Positions 51,208 to 56,225 of a stretch of 64,000 nt of DNA are shown piece by piece. Source of the DNA: Rhizobium sp. BK418 (GTDB lineage Bacteria > Pseudomonadota > Alphaproteobacteria > Rhizobiales > Rhizobiaceae); contig NZ_SLZK01000003.1 of NCBI RefSeq assembly GCF_004341105.1, positions 806,001 through 870,000 of the forward strand, read 5' to 3'. The position numbers and the translations under genes are program-made. Every line of letters starts with the position of its first letter. Position 1 is the stretch's first letter. Under the pieces are notes generated by a model, which saw nothing but the letters and a program-made list of their open reading frames with translations, did not search any database and had not been told where the DNA came from.

Positions 51208-51843
51208 CTACCAGCGAAGGATTTTTCGGCCAAGGAGAAATCCCGCCGCGGTCGCGACCAATATGCCGATCGAATACCATGTCGCCAGAAACAACGGGCT
51301 GTCGTCCGGGCAGTGCCAGGCGTAGATGGCGGCTGCAATACCGCCGGCGGCAAGGCCCGCGACAGCACCTGCCGTGCCCGGATTTTCCGGGGCGCCCTGG
51401 CGGACGGAATAGAGGATCGCCGCAAGCGGGGCAATCGACAGCGTGGGGACGAAGAACAGGCAGAAGGCGGAGAAATGGCCCTCCATGCTGCTTGCCCAGG
51501 CTGCCTGGGGCACGACGAGCAGTTCGGTGGCGATGCCGATGACCAGAACCGCCAGCGGCAGGGCGAGCGTCATGGCCGCCGAGCGCAGCGACACGCCGGG
51601 CTTGCCGATCAGGAAGGCGAGGCGGGTGGCTGATATGGCGAGCAACAGGGTGATGCCGAGCTTGAAGAGGACGCGCGGCGTCTCGATCATTTCGGCCATA
51701 TTTCTGCGAATGCCGATGGTGGAGAGCAGCAGGCCGGCGGAGAACACCACGCCGATGGCAAGCGCGATCAGAAAGACGCGACCGAAGCGGACGCGCACGC
51801 GCGCATCTTTTGTCAGCAGGTTGATCAGGTCATCCGTTTTCAC
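51208..51843 (-). CDS. nrsF: NrsF-type (DUF1109) membrane anti-sigma factor
   Basis: 211 residues with six predicted membrane helices and a short N-terminal cytoplasmic segment beginning MKTDDLINLLTKDARV, as in NrsF/DUF1109 proteins. In Caulobacter NrsF holds SigF inactive until metal or oxidant stress. Its start overlaps the sigma gene by 14 bases. Cys in its C-terminal half (HCPDDSP, FSAFCLFF) could take part in sensing, but that is inference. Confidence 0.9.
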   Translation of the reverse strand: MKTDDLINLLTKDARVRVRFGRVFLIALAIGVVFSAGLLLSTIGIRRNMAEMIETPRVLFKLGITLLLAISATRLAFLIGKPGVSLRSAAMTLALPLAVLVIGIATELLVVPQAAWASSMEGHFSAFCLFFVPTLSIAPLAAILYSVRQGAPENPGTAGAVAGLAAGGIAAAIYAWHCPDDSPLFLATWYSIGILVATAAGFLLGRKILRW

Positions 51844-52396
51844 GCGTATTGCTCCGATAGAGGGCCGCCAATCCTTTGAGTGCCCTGTGCAGCGCCACTC
51901 GCACGGCGCCTTCCGTCATATGTAACTTCTCGGCGGTTTCGCGGATACCGGCGCCGCCGAGCGAGATCGAGCGGACGATTTCGCGCTGCGGATCGCGCAG
52001 GCCTTCCAGCATGCGGTCGACATCGATCCGATCGGCGCCGTCTTCCTGGCGGTCGGCTTCCAGCGTTTCCATCACGTCCTCGATCGGCACGCTGACATGA
52101 CGGCCGCGCCGGCGCAGGCTGTCGATCAGCTTGTTGCGCACGATGGTCGAAAGCCACGGGCCGATCGGCCGGGACATATCCCAGGTGCCGCGCTTCAGGT
52201 GCACAGCCAGCAGAACTTCCTGCACCACGTCTTCCACCTCGCTCGGCGGGGCACCGAACTGGTCGCAGCGCCGGCGCGCGATCGACCGCAGATAGGGTGT
52301 CACGGCCTTCAGGAAACGGTCATAGGCCAGCGCGTCGCCGGCGATTGCCGCGCGCATCCAGGCCGCCCATTCCTCTTCGCGGGCCGAATATTTCAT
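51830..52396 (-). CDS. ECF sigma factor (SigF-like) paired with NrsF
   Basis: 188 residues. Region 2 contains VEDVVQEVLLAVHLKRGTWD and WLSTIVRNKLIDSLRRRGR, and region 4 contains LHMTEGAVRVALHRALKGLA. No sensor extension is present. Pairing with NrsF places it in the SigF-type ECF group. It follows the bufferin-type operon on the same strand, and a promoter-like sequence resembling the one before the precursor gene lies 13 bases upstream of its start, so it may activate both. Confidence 0.92.
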   Translation of the reverse strand: MKYSAREEEWAAWMRAAIAGDALAYDRFLKAVTPYLRSIARRRCDQFGAPPSEVEDVVQEVLLAVHLKRGTWDMSRPIGPWLSTIVRNKLIDSLRRRGRHVSVPIEDVMETLEADRQEDGADRIDVDRMLEGLRDPQREIVRSISLGGAGIRETAEKLHMTEGAVRVALHRALKGLAALYRSNTRENG

Positions 52397-52408
52397 CCGC
52401 CACTATCC

Positions 52409-52436
52409 TCTACGCACGGACCCACGTGTTTATTAC
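52409..52436 (-). promoter_or_regulatory. Candidate ECF-type promoter of the sigma gene
   Basis: On the minus strand GTAATA (complement of 52431-52436), a 16-base spacer and CGTAGA (complement of 52409-52414). Spacing equals that of the candidate promoter of the precursor gene. The match to a GTAAC-N16-CGAA consensus is weaker here. Confidence 0.45.
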
Positions 52437-52548
52437 CGTCATCCTGAGAATTTTGATGACGCGGCACGTGAGGCAAGGCCGGCGTCGGCGCCTATTGAGC
52501 GCATCGGCGGGCAAACGGCAAGAGTAGTGCGGCAACAAAGCGCAAAAG

Positions 52549-52576
52549 CCGCCCGGCTCGATGCGGAGCCGGGCGG
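52549..52576. terminator. Hairpin after the DoxX gene
   Basis: An 11-base perfect stem, CCGCCCGGCTC (52549-52559) and GAGCCGGGCGG (52566-52576), with a 6-base loop. It lies between the DoxX stop and the sigma gene and should separate the two transcripts. Confidence 0.65.
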
Positions 52577-52607
52577 GCGTTCGTGTCGATGACTGCTGCT
52601 ATGTGTT

Positions 52608-53135
52608 CTAGCGGTTGGCAGCGCCTGACATCCGCGCAATCAGATGGTCGAGCGATAGGCGGCCCGGCCCATAGCGCATGATGGCAAGTGCCATCGCCGC
52701 CCAGGTGATGTGGATGGGCCAGCCATCGGGCACGGTGAGTTCCACGATGAGCGTCATGAAGAGCAGGCCGAGACCGGCAAAACGGGTGGCGAGACCGAGC
52801 ACAAGAAGGATCGGAAAGGTGATCTCGCCGCAGCCGGAGAGGAAGGCCATCACCGCCGGCATGGGGAAGGGATAGGGGCCGCCCGGCAGATGCAGCATGA
52901 ATTCCTGCGTGAAGAGATCGATCGCCGTATCATTGAGCTGCAGGAAGCCATCCCATTTCAGGATGCCTGAGCGCCAGAAGGGAACGGCGAGCGCCACGCG
53001 GATGACGGCCTGGACGAAATCGGGTTGGGCGACGGCGCGGACAAGTCCGTCAGCCGCCGCCACAAGCCTCGCGAGCGGGGAGAGAGCGCCGTTGCGAGGC
53101 CCATTGCGAGGTACGGAGTCGAGCATATCAGACAT
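52608..53135 (-). CDS. DoxX-family membrane protein of the bufferin-type operon
   Basis: 175 residues with four membrane helices of the DoxX family, including FWRSGILKWDGF and FLSGCGEITFPILLVLGLATRFA. Many MNIO/DUF2282 operons carry such a gene as last member, often with a redox or quinone role proposed. Its ATG overlaps the preceding DUF2063 gene stop by 8 bases, so it is cotranscribed. Confidence 0.88.
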   Translation of the reverse strand: MSDMLDSVPRNGPRNGALSPLARLVAAADGLVRAVAQPDFVQAVIRVALAVPFWRSGILKWDGFLQLNDTAIDLFTQEFMLHLPGGPYPFPMPAVMAFLSGCGEITFPILLVLGLATRFAGLGLLFMTLIVELTVPDGWPIHITWAAMALAIMRYGPGRLSLDHLIARMSGAANR

Positions 53136-53931
53136 TGGAAATCTCCGGTTCGATAGCGGAACAGGCGCCCGATGCGATCATCTCGCCGATGGCGGCTGAG
53201 AGATCGAATGCGGGGCAGGTGTCGAGCCCGGCTGCGACGGCGGCGGCAAGGCATTCGCCTGACAGAAGCGCGTTGAAGAAAGCGGCTCCGCCAGGCGGCA
53301 GGAGGCGCACCGTGACCTCGTCGTCGGCGCGAGTGATCAGTCCGTCTTCAGGGCGATCCTCGACGCGACCGATTGGGCCTGGGCCGCGATTCATGGCGAA
53401 GATAGTGACGGCGGGATGGTCAGATGAAATCACCCGCGTCGCCGGGTGCGGGCGGAAGATCACCGCACCGAGATCTTCCTGCGGCACGGCGGCGAGCGCT
53501 TCGGCGCGGAAGGCCGGTGCATCGGCCGCGTGATAGGCGTCCAGCCAGGCACGCTCGATCCTCGCCACATCCGAAAGCCAGGGCATATCGGCGGCATATT
53601 CGTAACGGTCGATGAAATCGGCGAAGTCGCGTCCGTATTCGAAGAGGAGCGGCGAGGCAGGCGGCGTCTCGCGCACGTGGAAACGGGCCATGGCGCGAAA
53701 GAAATCCGTGCCCGTAATGCGCTCGACTGCCGGGAAGATCGAAGAAAGCGCCGCAATCAGGCTGACGGTGACATTATTGCGGTAGACATTGTAGCGCTTC
53801 TCGGCCCGCTTGCCGCGCGGGCCGGTTACCAGATCAGGGGCGGGGGCATCGGGGGAAAGCAGGGCTGCGGAAAATTGCCCGGCGAAATTTGATGCCATTG
53901 GCCGGATCGGCAGGATGTCAGCCGAGTGCAT
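53128..53931 (-). CDS. DUF2063 partner protein (BufC/HvfC-like)
   Basis: About 267 residues. The N-terminal part (about 15-110) is the DUF2063 domain with [18 protein letters not shown] and [13 protein letters not shown]. It is the usual partner of DUF692 MNIO enzymes in RiPP operons and is thought to present the precursor to the enzyme. ATG at 53931 is used because AGGAAG precedes it. It overlaps the DUF692 gene by 14 bases. Confidence 0.88.
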
Positions 53932-54859
53932 GGGATGTCTTCCTGTCGCTCGCATGGCGATCGAGAATGGCTTGCGCCGCCAGCGCTTCGGCGCGCAGCA
54001 CCGGCCAGTCGGGAATCTTGCTGTCCCATTCGATCAGCGTCGGGATCGGGCCACAGCGGGCGATCACGATCTTATAGAGCTGCCAGACGGCATCGGCGAC
54101 CGGGCCGTCATGGCTGTCGATCAACAGCAGCTCGCCTTCGTCATCCTCCTGTTCGGCATGGCCGGCGAGATGGATCTCGCCGACTTTCGCCAGGGGAAAA
54201 TCGCGCAGATATTCCAGCGCCGAGAAGCCGTGATTGGTGGCGGAAACAAAGACATTGTTGATGTCGAGCAGCAAACCGCAGCCCGTACGTCTCGATATCT
54301 CGCGGATGAAATCCGTCTCACTGATGGAGGATTCCGCAAAGAGCACATAGGTGGAGGGATTTTCGAGCAGGATCGGCCGGCCGATGGCATTCTGCATCTC
54401 GTCGATGTGATCGCAGACATGGGCCAGTGTCGCCGCCGTATAGGGCAATGGCAGCAGGTCGTTCAGATAGGTATCGACATGGGTCGACCAGGCGAGATGT
54501 TCGGAGACCAGCGCCGGCTCATAGCGGTCGACGAGGCTTTTGAAACGCCCGAGATGCTCGCGGTCGAGCGGCTGCGGGCCGCCGAGCGACATGCACACGC
54601 CATGCAGAGAAATCGGGTGGTCGCGGCGCACGCGTTCCAGCGCGCGATGCGGCGGGCCGCCGGCGCCCATATAATTTTCGGCGTGGATTTCGAAGAAATT
54701 CCGGGGACCCAATGCTTGGGGCCCGGTCTGCGCAGCAATGGCCGCCAGATGCTCCGGCTTGAAGCTGGTGCCGGCCTGGCCGGCGAGTGAATATGTCGGG
54801 AAGCGGAGGGTGCTTTCCGTCTCCATCAGAAGGTTGGTCGTCAAGGTGACGTTTGCCAT
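53918..54859 (-). CDS. DUF692 multinuclear iron oxidative enzyme (MNIO, BufB-like)
   Basis: 313 residues with the DUF692 TIM-barrel fold. Likely Fe ligands occur in [52 protein letters not shown] and EIHLAGH. MNIO enzymes modify Cys or Asn residues of precursor peptides (for bufferins, Cys to 5-thiooxazole). It follows the DUF2282 precursor by 39 bases and overlaps its DUF2063 partner, which fixes its role as the maturation enzyme. Confidence 0.93.
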
Positions 54860-54898
54860 AGGCGCCTCCGCTTTCCTGATATCAGCCCGATTTTCGGC

Positions 54899-55213
54899 TT
54901 AGATGTCGCGCGTCAGCGGCTTCAGCGAGCCGTGACGGCCGCCCGGCAGCTCAAGCGAGGCGCAGGTGCCGCCCTGGACGAATTTCCAGGAATTGCCCTG
55001 GAAGTCCTTCACGGAGGTTCCCTGGCAGGTCGTGCCCGGGCCGGCGGCGCAATCGTTCTGGCCCTTCAGTGCGACGCCGAAGCACTTTTCCTTGTGGGCG
55101 GCGATGGCAGCATTGGCCTCGGCCTTGGTCAGCGGGGCGGCACTTGCCATCGTGGCAAGAGCGGATGTGATTGCGCCGGCAAGAAGGGCGGTGCTGATGG
55201 AAGTCTTCAACAT
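54899..55213 (-). CDS. DUF2282 RiPP precursor with signal peptide (bufferin-type, BufA1-like)
   Basis: 104 residues from the ATG at 55213. A signal peptide (1 to about 25) is followed by a mature part with exactly four Cys: Cys44 in [14 protein letters not shown], Cys55, Cys63 in [14 protein letters not shown] and Cys84 in [12 protein letters not shown]. This is the DUF2282 pattern of bufferins, periplasmic peptides whose central Cys pair is oxidised by the MNIO enzyme and which bind copper. Longer starts to 55360 do not change the signal peptide. Copper binding here is inferred, not shown. Confidence 0.88.
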
Positions 55214-55263
55214 TGGTAGTCTCCGTTGCTTGAAACGCCCCTGTTTCAGCGGGGCACGTCGGG

Positions 55264-55291
55264 TATTCGCAACGGGAAAGCGGGTTGTTAC
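55264..55291 (-). promoter_or_regulatory. Candidate SigF-type promoter of the precursor operon
   Basis: On the minus strand TGTAACA (complement of 55286-55292) as -35, then a 16-base spacer from GTAACA, then CGAATA (complement of 55264-55269) as -10. From memory, Caulobacter SigF promoters follow GTAACC-N16-CGAA. The element lies 51 bases ahead of the precursor ATG. Confidence 0.6.
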
Positions 55292-55347
55292 AGACGTGGT
55301 GGTAACGAAGGCGTGATGGAGATTGGAGACAGAAGACCCCACCCCAA

Positions 55348-55485: not shown

Positions 55486-56225
55486 TTACCGTTCAATCGC
55501 CATATCAAACACCAGCAACCCCGGCACTTCCAACGGCAACTGCGCCACCACTTCTCCCGCCGGGTTCAACACCGCCGTCGGCCCCCAGGAAATGCGGCCC
55601 TCGCGTTCTCCCGTCACATCGGCCGATATCAGCCACAGACCGTCTCCCGGCAGCGTTCGCCTCTCGCAGCATTGTGTATGTCCCTGAATTCCTCGGCATT
55701 GGCGCGCGGCATCATGTTGTTGGCGCAGCAGACGAGCAGGGATGCGCCTGTGAGTGCGACCTTGCGGGCGGCCTCGGGGAAGCCGGTGTCGTAGCAGATG
55801 TTGATGCCGAAGCGCAGGCCATCGACCGTGAAGACTGGCGTCTCGGTTCCCGGCTGGAAGAAACTTTCTCCCTTGAGCAGATGCGCCTTGCGATATCGGC
55901 CGATCAGCTTGCCTTTTTCGATGACGACGGCGGTGTTGAACAGTGCTTCGCCTTCAGCCTCGATCATGCCCATGACGATCATGGGGGCGGCATCGGCGAG
56001 CCGGCTTTTGACGGCGGCGAATGCCAGGGATCCGAGATCCATGGCGGCTCTTCGTGCCGCTCCGGCCTCCGTCAGATAACCCTGCAGAAAACCTTCGGGA
56101 AAGATGAGGAGGCGGGCGCCTTCAGCTTCGGCGTGACGGATCACATCGAGCGCGTATGTCAGGGCGGCCTCGACATTTTCGCGATATTCCAAGGTCTGGG
56201 CGGCGGCGATGCGGACGGTTTTCAT
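55486..56225 (-). pseudogene. Carbon-nitrogen hydrolase (nitrilase superfamily) with a frameshift
   Basis: From 56225 the N-terminal two-thirds is intact and carries the triad: Glu in LLIFPEGFLQGY, Lys in GRYRKAHLL and Cys in GINICYDTGFPEA. After NAARGERCRETV the frame stops early. One base away the expected end continues (GLWLISADVTGEREG, then LPLEVPGLLVFDMAIER) to a stop at 55486. Restoring a single base near 55640 gives a normal protein of about 246 residues. A pseudogene or a sequencing error are both possible. Confidence 0.85.

Follow-up and report, generated by a model that had tools for sequence, protein, structure and literature searches.

A Buf1-type bufferin operon of Rhizobium sp. 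BK418, its ECF16-type sigma/NrsF pair and a conserved dyad upstream of its promoter

The window studied here, a stretch of 64,000 nucleotides from Rhizobium sp. BK418 (contig NZ_SLZK01000003.1, positions 806,001 to 870,000), carries a bufferin operon, that is, genes for a ribosomally synthesised and post-translationally modified peptide (RiPP) of a class described as sequestering copper in the periplasm (PMC12452194). Beside it lie the genes of a sigma factor of the extracytoplasmic function (ECF) type and of an NrsF-family anti-sigma factor. We propose, at about even odds (roughly 0.5), that rhizobial bufferin operons are run by an exchangeable ECF16 sigma/anti-sigma pair together with a further factor acting on a dyad held at a near-fixed distance from the promoter; that the present locus is a Buf1 bufferin under ECF16/NrsF control appears to us quite probable.

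The locus and its gene families

The features concerned, in window positions, are the following.

55302..55317, minus strand: dyad ATCACG-N4-CGTTAC upstream of the -35 element, kept at near-fixed spacing across genera
55265..55292, minus strand: ECF16-type promoter of bufA, TGTAAC-N17-CGAAT, the only exact match in the genome
54899..55213, minus strand: bufA, DUF2282 (Buf1) precursor of 104 aa (PF10048, 75.1 bits, cut-off 22.4)
53918..54859, minus strand: bufB, MNIO (DUF692) bufferin maturase of 313 aa (NF050167, 375.1 bits, cut-off 310)
53128..53931, minus strand: bufC, DUF2063 partner, PME type 1 (PF09836, 85.9 bits, cut-off 27.2)
52608..53135, minus strand: DoxX-family membrane protein (PF07681, 56.8 bits, cut-off 23.6)
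52550..52575, minus strand: terminator-like hairpin in the DoxX/sigma gap (a 71-nt stretch folds with a z of -3.89)
52410..52437, minus strand: promoter-like site of the sigma unit, GGTAAT-N17-CGTAG, one base off most relatives (GGTAAC)
51830..52396, minus strand: ECF sigma factor, ECF16/SigF type (NF009165, 282.4 bits, cut-off 198)
51208..51843, minus strand: NrsF-family anti-sigma factor with a GTG start (PF06532, 179.5 bits, cut-off 26.8)

We provisionally take NF009165 to be an ECF16-type profile. The six genes follow one another on a single strand in the order given by an earlier sequence-only reading, and each matches its Pfam family, including the three profiles which that reading had put forward as a check (DUF2282, DUF692 and DUF2063, at 75.1, 342.9 and 85.9 bits, the second value being that of BufB against PF05114, cut-off 25). 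BufB also matches the structure 3bww (E 4e-38), and the sigma factor matches PF04542 (region 2; 48.9 bits, cut-off 24) and PF08281 (region 4; 40.3 bits, cut-off 25.7). The same reading spoke of a four-gene overlapping unit, which holds for bufB/bufC and bufC/DoxX (the sigma and NrsF genes overlap as well) but not for bufA and bufB, which are 39 nt apart; the sigma gene starts 211 nt past DoxX. Its span of 51208 to 55292 does contain the genes, but at 55292 the -35 element begins, outside the coding sequence, bufA starting with the ATG at 55213. The most likely start of bufC is 53931, where AGGA lies ahead of the ATG, rather than 53955.

The precursor has the four cysteines noted in that reading: C44, C55, C63 and C84 are kept in all 99 aligned bufA-like open reading frames (ORFs) from 91 loci, and the N-terminus, on reading of the translation, resembles a signal peptide. 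Because BufA stays below the BufA2 model NF050166 (22.2 bits, cut-off 60) and matches DUF2282, we assign it to Buf1, for which the central cysteines are given as the modification targets and the outer ones as a disulphide (PMC12452194). NrsF scores below the NCBIfam equivalog NF042994 (97.2 bits against 300) and is a member of the Pfam family outside that equivalog; its Cys128 is present in 47/47 aligned sequences and its Cys178 in 45/47. BufC is likewise below the HvfC equivalog of NCBIfam (35.8 bits against 142), and its structure model, made from 34 sequences (mean predicted local distance difference test score, pLDDT, of 90.6), has just three matches in the PDB at E < 0.001, namely TglI (8hi7 and 8hci) and NGO1945 (3dee), the last serving as reference for partners of PME type 1 (PMC12452194). 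In BufB, Asp279 of the EWD motif is kept in 92/92 aligned relatives and would be the equivalent of FonB Asp249, the proposed catalytic base of that enzyme (PMC12668002). The Pfam and NCBIfam matches thus uphold the call of a bufferin operon of the Buf1 type, accompanied by genes for an ECF sigma factor and an NrsF-family anti-sigma factor; the gene set is a previously unreported rhizobial member of a bufferin class that has itself been described.

In the genome of this strain (6.38 Mb, 21 contigs) there is one match each for DUF2282, NrsF and MNIO at E 0.001, all at the present locus. The closest named loci are mostly from Rhizobium or Rhizobiales, with MNIO identities of up to 90%, and a survey of the genus found DUF2282 in 105 of 148 genomes and NrsF in 147. 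The published counterpart is RpoE7/EcfR7 with SMb20530-20527 of Sinorhizobium meliloti 1021 (PMC6180224), which resembles the window in operon content (our locus L162), MNIO (69% identity), bufA promoter pattern and dyad spacing. It differs in its sigma and NrsF genes (43% and 36% identity to those of the window), which are divergent and upstream whereas the window pair lies downstream on the same strand, and in its type of sigma promoter, which in 7 of 8 Sinorhizobium-type loci is TGTAAC-N16-CGAAT, against GGTAAY-N17-CGTAG in the window type.

In Caulobacter, by description, DUF2282, DUF692, DUF2063-type and DoxX genes also stand beside SigF/NrsF (PMC3511200, PMC8224329), with SigF-dependent promoters and two conserved NrsF cysteines; its regulon has in addition a second bufferin operon and MsrPQ (PMC8224329), whereas the window genome has one bufA and one exact promoter (and three genes of PF00174, the MsrP family). 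Five loci (L154, from the genus of the window, L082, L067, L068 and L064) have two bufA-like ORFs in tandem and a divergent sigma gene, where the window has one bufA. Finally, the captophorins (fontiphorin, gonophorin, oxazolin; PMC12668002) share the MNIO and PME1 partner, but their precursors are of the EGKCG type and that of the window is a DUF2282 protein; a thiooxazole chemistry was proposed in the same paper for the class, bufferins included.

The promoters and the dyad

The bufA promoter, 51 nt before the bufA start, is the sole exact match in the genome of the S. meliloti pattern; the SMb20530 promoter is listed as a stretch that begins AATGTAACATCGCTCCCGGTGGCTGCGAATGACGG, and overexpression of RpoE7 raises SMb20530-20527 (PMC6180224). 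The window promoter also agrees with the ECF16 consensus, tGTAACc-N16-CGAA (PMC3420878). Since an ECF16-type promoter sits upstream of bufA, the control by the sigma factor that had been suggested from the sequence is supported. At up to two mismatches, the promoter is present in 57 of the 79 named loci with bufA, including all 12 window-type loci among those 79. A regulon beyond the locus was looked for and rejected: the promoter at up to one mismatch gave 25 matches against 35 in a reversed control, and we regard these matches as noise because the control gave more; KGTAAC-N17-CGWAK gave 12 against 24, and among the nearby ORFs viewed (no family search was made) no target was recognised except bufA.

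Among the 19 window-type loci the sigma promoter is GGTAAC-N17-CGTAG in 14, has one base different in three (the window included) and has no match in two, and sigma autoregulation may be weakened in the window strain. The hairpin in the DoxX/sigma gap is GC-rich and has a similar one, judged by eye, in 8 of 11 aligned window-type relatives; it was not among the results of a terminator scan. In view of this hairpin and of the separate sigma promoter, the operon and the sigma/NrsF genes are probably two transcription units. In Rhizobium sp. BK316 (L009, 8283-12881; L146) DoxX and sigma are about 5.4 kb apart; between them lie two ORFs that PADLOC does not match and a gene (1155 bits) like those of type IIG restriction-modification systems.

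The dyad, in its general TCACG-N4-CGTGA-like form, stands at a near-fixed distance from the bufA ECF promoter across genera of Rhizobiales. In window-type relatives ATCACG-N4-CGTTAC stays, with variants in a few of them, while the DNA further upstream diverges, and 12 nt separate the end of CGT from TGTAAC; the S. meliloti dyad, CTCACGAAAGCGTGTA, is spaced as in the window. The dyad came to light in window-type loci and S. meliloti and was afterwards found in Mesorhizobium and Bradyrhizobium. A promoter was recognised by the two-mismatch rule in 69 of the 91 loci, and merging identical upstream stretches left 68 distinct promoters for the shuffle test (69, with longer stretches, for the group counts). 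CACG-N4-CGT occurs within 40 nt upstream in 49 of the 68, at a spacing of 12 nt in 36, 13 in 8, 11 in 4 and 7 in 1, against 0.22 on average and at most 3 in 2000 single-base shuffles (which leave sequence kinship in place). By group, the dyad is found in 17/19 window-type, 8/8 Sinorhizobium, 6/6 Mesorhizobium and 16/17 Bradyrhizobium promoters, and as a perfect 16-nt palindrome in two Bradyrhizobium loci (L039 and L041).

A gene-blind search of 394 genomes of the family for the composite of dyad and promoter gave 25 sites in 25 genomes against 12 in a reversed control; as this makes the count just twofold, the strength of the test lies in the location of the matches and not in their number. 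Of these sites, 23, from 12 genera, are followed within 900 nt by bufA and bufB ORFs and two are not, a test that is partly independent, since some sites repeat the discovery set (the window and the equals of L057, L019 and L027).

We therefore lean, on the strength of this sequence conservation, towards the dyad as the putative site of a regulator. Its midpoint is some 17 nt upstream of the -35 element, which would place it near -53 provided that the last base of the published tabulated sequence is the start site. As few strict forms of the dyad occur in the genomes searched, the factor may serve the bufferin alone: ATCACG-N4-CGTKAY has four matches in the window genome, one of them at bufA, and CTCACG-N4-CGTGAG has 0 to 3 per genome in 12 Bradyrhizobium genomes, being present in the 11 whose bufA sites show it. 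Of six further sites, the four viewed adjoin genes that are by reading unrelated to bufferin. A tentative candidate for the factor is BufC, because NGO1945, which it resembles in fold, was at one time a predicted transcription factor. The dyad was also considered as a divergent sigma promoter and rejected, by eye, for want of a -10 element at the right distance.

Two side observations may be recorded here. One of the four matches in the window genome (L148) lies about 150 nt upstream of a gene that reads like that of the heat-shock sigma factor RpoH. The tandem-type bufA promoters of L082 and L154 have no dyad but a run of A/T-rich DNA in about the same position, with the palindrome TCGAAA...TTTCGA in L082.

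Besides the modest excess over the reversed control, several points weigh against the general scheme that we propose. The composite is absent from 369 of the 394 family genomes, counted irrespective of the presence of bufA; 22 of the 79 named bufA loci have no promoter recognisable by the two-mismatch rule; the dyad is found in none of the five tandem-bufA promoters and in only 2/19 of the group of other promoters, those five included; and no regulator gene was seen among the neighbouring genes of the window operon. At 22 of the composite loci the best-scoring upstream ORF, one per locus, was compared with the sigma and NrsF profiles, of which 8 matched the former and 3 the latter. Moreover, S. 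meliloti does not strictly need the dyad factor, as overexpression of RpoE7 alone raises the operon there. The system had been called self-contained, which is doubtful, because the conserved dyad points to an additional factor and no gene for one was seen next to it.

Histories of the sigma pair and the operon

Among 80 named loci, those of Sinorhizobium and some others have divergent sigma/NrsF genes upstream, window-type loci have them on the operon strand downstream, and a few show another arrangement; the pair was not found within the fetched stretch at any Mesorhizobium or Bradyrhizobium locus, nor at some others. On the scheme proposed above, dyad and promoter would stay with the operon whether the pair is absent, is elsewhere or belongs to another bufferin lineage. 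The window sigma, 43% identical to that of S. meliloti, is 78-79% identical to those of the tandem-bufA loci L154 and L082; the window MNIO, 69% identical to that of S. meliloti, is 61-63% identical to those of L064, L067, L068 and L082.

Approximately unbiased (AU) tests were made on 26 loci carrying both genes, with groups named after the identities had been seen. For sigma, a clade of window-type and Sinorhizobium sequences was rejected (p-AU 0.0014) and one of window-type and tandem sequences was not (0.42), so that the window sigma is not closest to the one driving this operon type in Sinorhizobium; for MNIO, it is the clade of window-type and tandem sequences that was rejected (p-AU 0.00018) and that of window-type and Sinorhizobium sequences that was not (0.16). 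The sigma promoters are of the GGTAAC-N17-CGTAG form in the window type (14/19) and the tandem loci (5/5) and of the TGTAAC-N16-CGAAT form in Sinorhizobium (7/8), and the bufA promoters end in CGAAT (14/19) or CGAGT (5/19) in the window type, CGAAN in Sinorhizobium and CGTAG in the tandem loci. Since the grouping of either tree is rejected by the AU test on the other gene, and since the promoters divide in the same way, the sigma pair and the bufABCD operon have, as judged from these comparisons, different histories, in trees with long branches and modest inner support. In the sigma tree a locus from Bosea (L014) groups with loci of the window and tandem types, in the MNIO tree with those of the window type and of Sinorhizobium; it is compatible with either lineage having exchanged its sigma. 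The conserved dyad and this mosaic of sigma and operon are points that we did not find in print in the open-access PMC literature.

Adjoining the operon, at window positions 55629-56225, is a carbon-nitrogen hydrolase gene, perhaps truncated, whose match covers only positions 1-178 of the 256 in its profile.

Inducing signal and proposed mechanism

The SigF regulon of Caulobacter is induced by copper, and a sigF mutant is copper-sensitive (PMC8224329). The regulon had earlier been tied to chromium and cadmium, but sigF, CC2906 and CC3255 were dispensable for survival under dichromate or cadmium (PMC3511200), and S. meliloti RpoE7 reporters were silent to H2O2, cadmium and chromate, in a section that mentions no copper test (PMC6180224). 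EcfF/OsrA, an ECF16 system of Bradyrhizobium, responds to H2O2 and singlet oxygen (PMC3420878), and BcrS/AbcS, an ECF16 relative of Brucella, to hypochlorous acid (HOCl; PMC8315932). The dispensability and the silent reporters speak on the negative side, and as ECF16 relatives answer to oxidants the signal may be other than a metal; copper induction of such a system was not found for a rhizobium in the open-access PMC literature. With SigF induced by copper, RpoE7 silent to H2O2, cadmium and chromate and other ECF16 factors answering to oxidants, we retain copper as the best guess; the use against host copper suggested from the sequence is speculative.

The oxidant responses would also fit a sigma/NrsF pair that is chiefly a switch for reactive oxygen or chlorine, the bufferin being a thiol sink or a guard against copper freed by oxidation, an explanation that we find rather doubtful. 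In its favour, Caulobacter SigF also drives MsrPQ (PMC8224329), two loci of the genus (L151 and L157) have sigma/NrsF beside a Met-rich peptide (without Pfam match), a cytochrome b and an MsrP-like protein, as read from translations, and in L155 (genome G030) a sigma 68% identical to that of the window stands, with NrsF, beside a chlorite-dismutase-like gene. Against it, the pair of L151/L157 is distant from that of the window (sigma 38%, NrsF 33-34%), the sole NrsF gene of the window genome adjoins the bufferin, with no other exact promoter match, and the RpoE7 reporters did not respond to H2O2 (PMC6180224). We note that the L151/L157 arrangement resembles HOCl-responsive systems, and that the L155 genome has 8 NrsF matches and no DUF2282, with sigma, NrsF, the chlorite-dismutase-like gene and a second NrsF in a row.

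It could also be argued that the dyad is no regulator site but an extended upstream element of the sigma factor's own promoter recognition, as its near-fixed spacing to the -35 element and the lack of a regulator gene seen beside it would suggest. We think this unlikely: no dyad lies close to the sigma promoter of the window or at the tandem-type bufA promoters, the latter in spite of the 78-79% sigma identity (two loci), and one is present with a sigma of another lineage (Sinorhizobium) or with no sigma within the locus (Bradyrhizobium and Mesorhizobium). That the bufferin chiefly binds another soft metal (Au, Ag, Hg or Cd) is very improbable given the description of bufferins as periplasmic copper sequesterers (PMC12452194), although Au, Ag and Cu are reported to elicit a response of the homologous gig cluster (PMC8224329), MerC-bufferin fusions exist (PMC12452194) and the window sequence carries nothing to separate the candidate metals.

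On the explanation that we prefer, the product of the locus would be a Buf1-class RiPP that buffers copper in the periplasm. BufA would be exported via a Sec-type signal; the MNIO BufB and its partner BufC would oxidise the central Cys55 and Cys63, probably to 5-thiooxazoles, while C44 and C84 would pair, and the exported peptide would chelate copper. NrsF would hold the ECF16-type sigma at the membrane until perturbation of Cys128/178 frees it; the freed sigma would then read the bufA promoter, TGTAAC-N17-CGAAT, and a weaker site of its own, and the additional factor would adjust the bufA promoter from the dyad upstream of its -35 element.

The bufferin class of copper-buffering RiPPs is widespread, and we found little on their control outside Caulobacter in the open-access PMC literature. 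The separate histories described above mean that a neighbouring sigma factor cannot simply be taken as the ancestral regulator of the operon, and the conserved extra site before the sigma promoter gives a concrete reason to seek another input in these systems, of which the S. meliloti counterpart was silent to the stresses tried.

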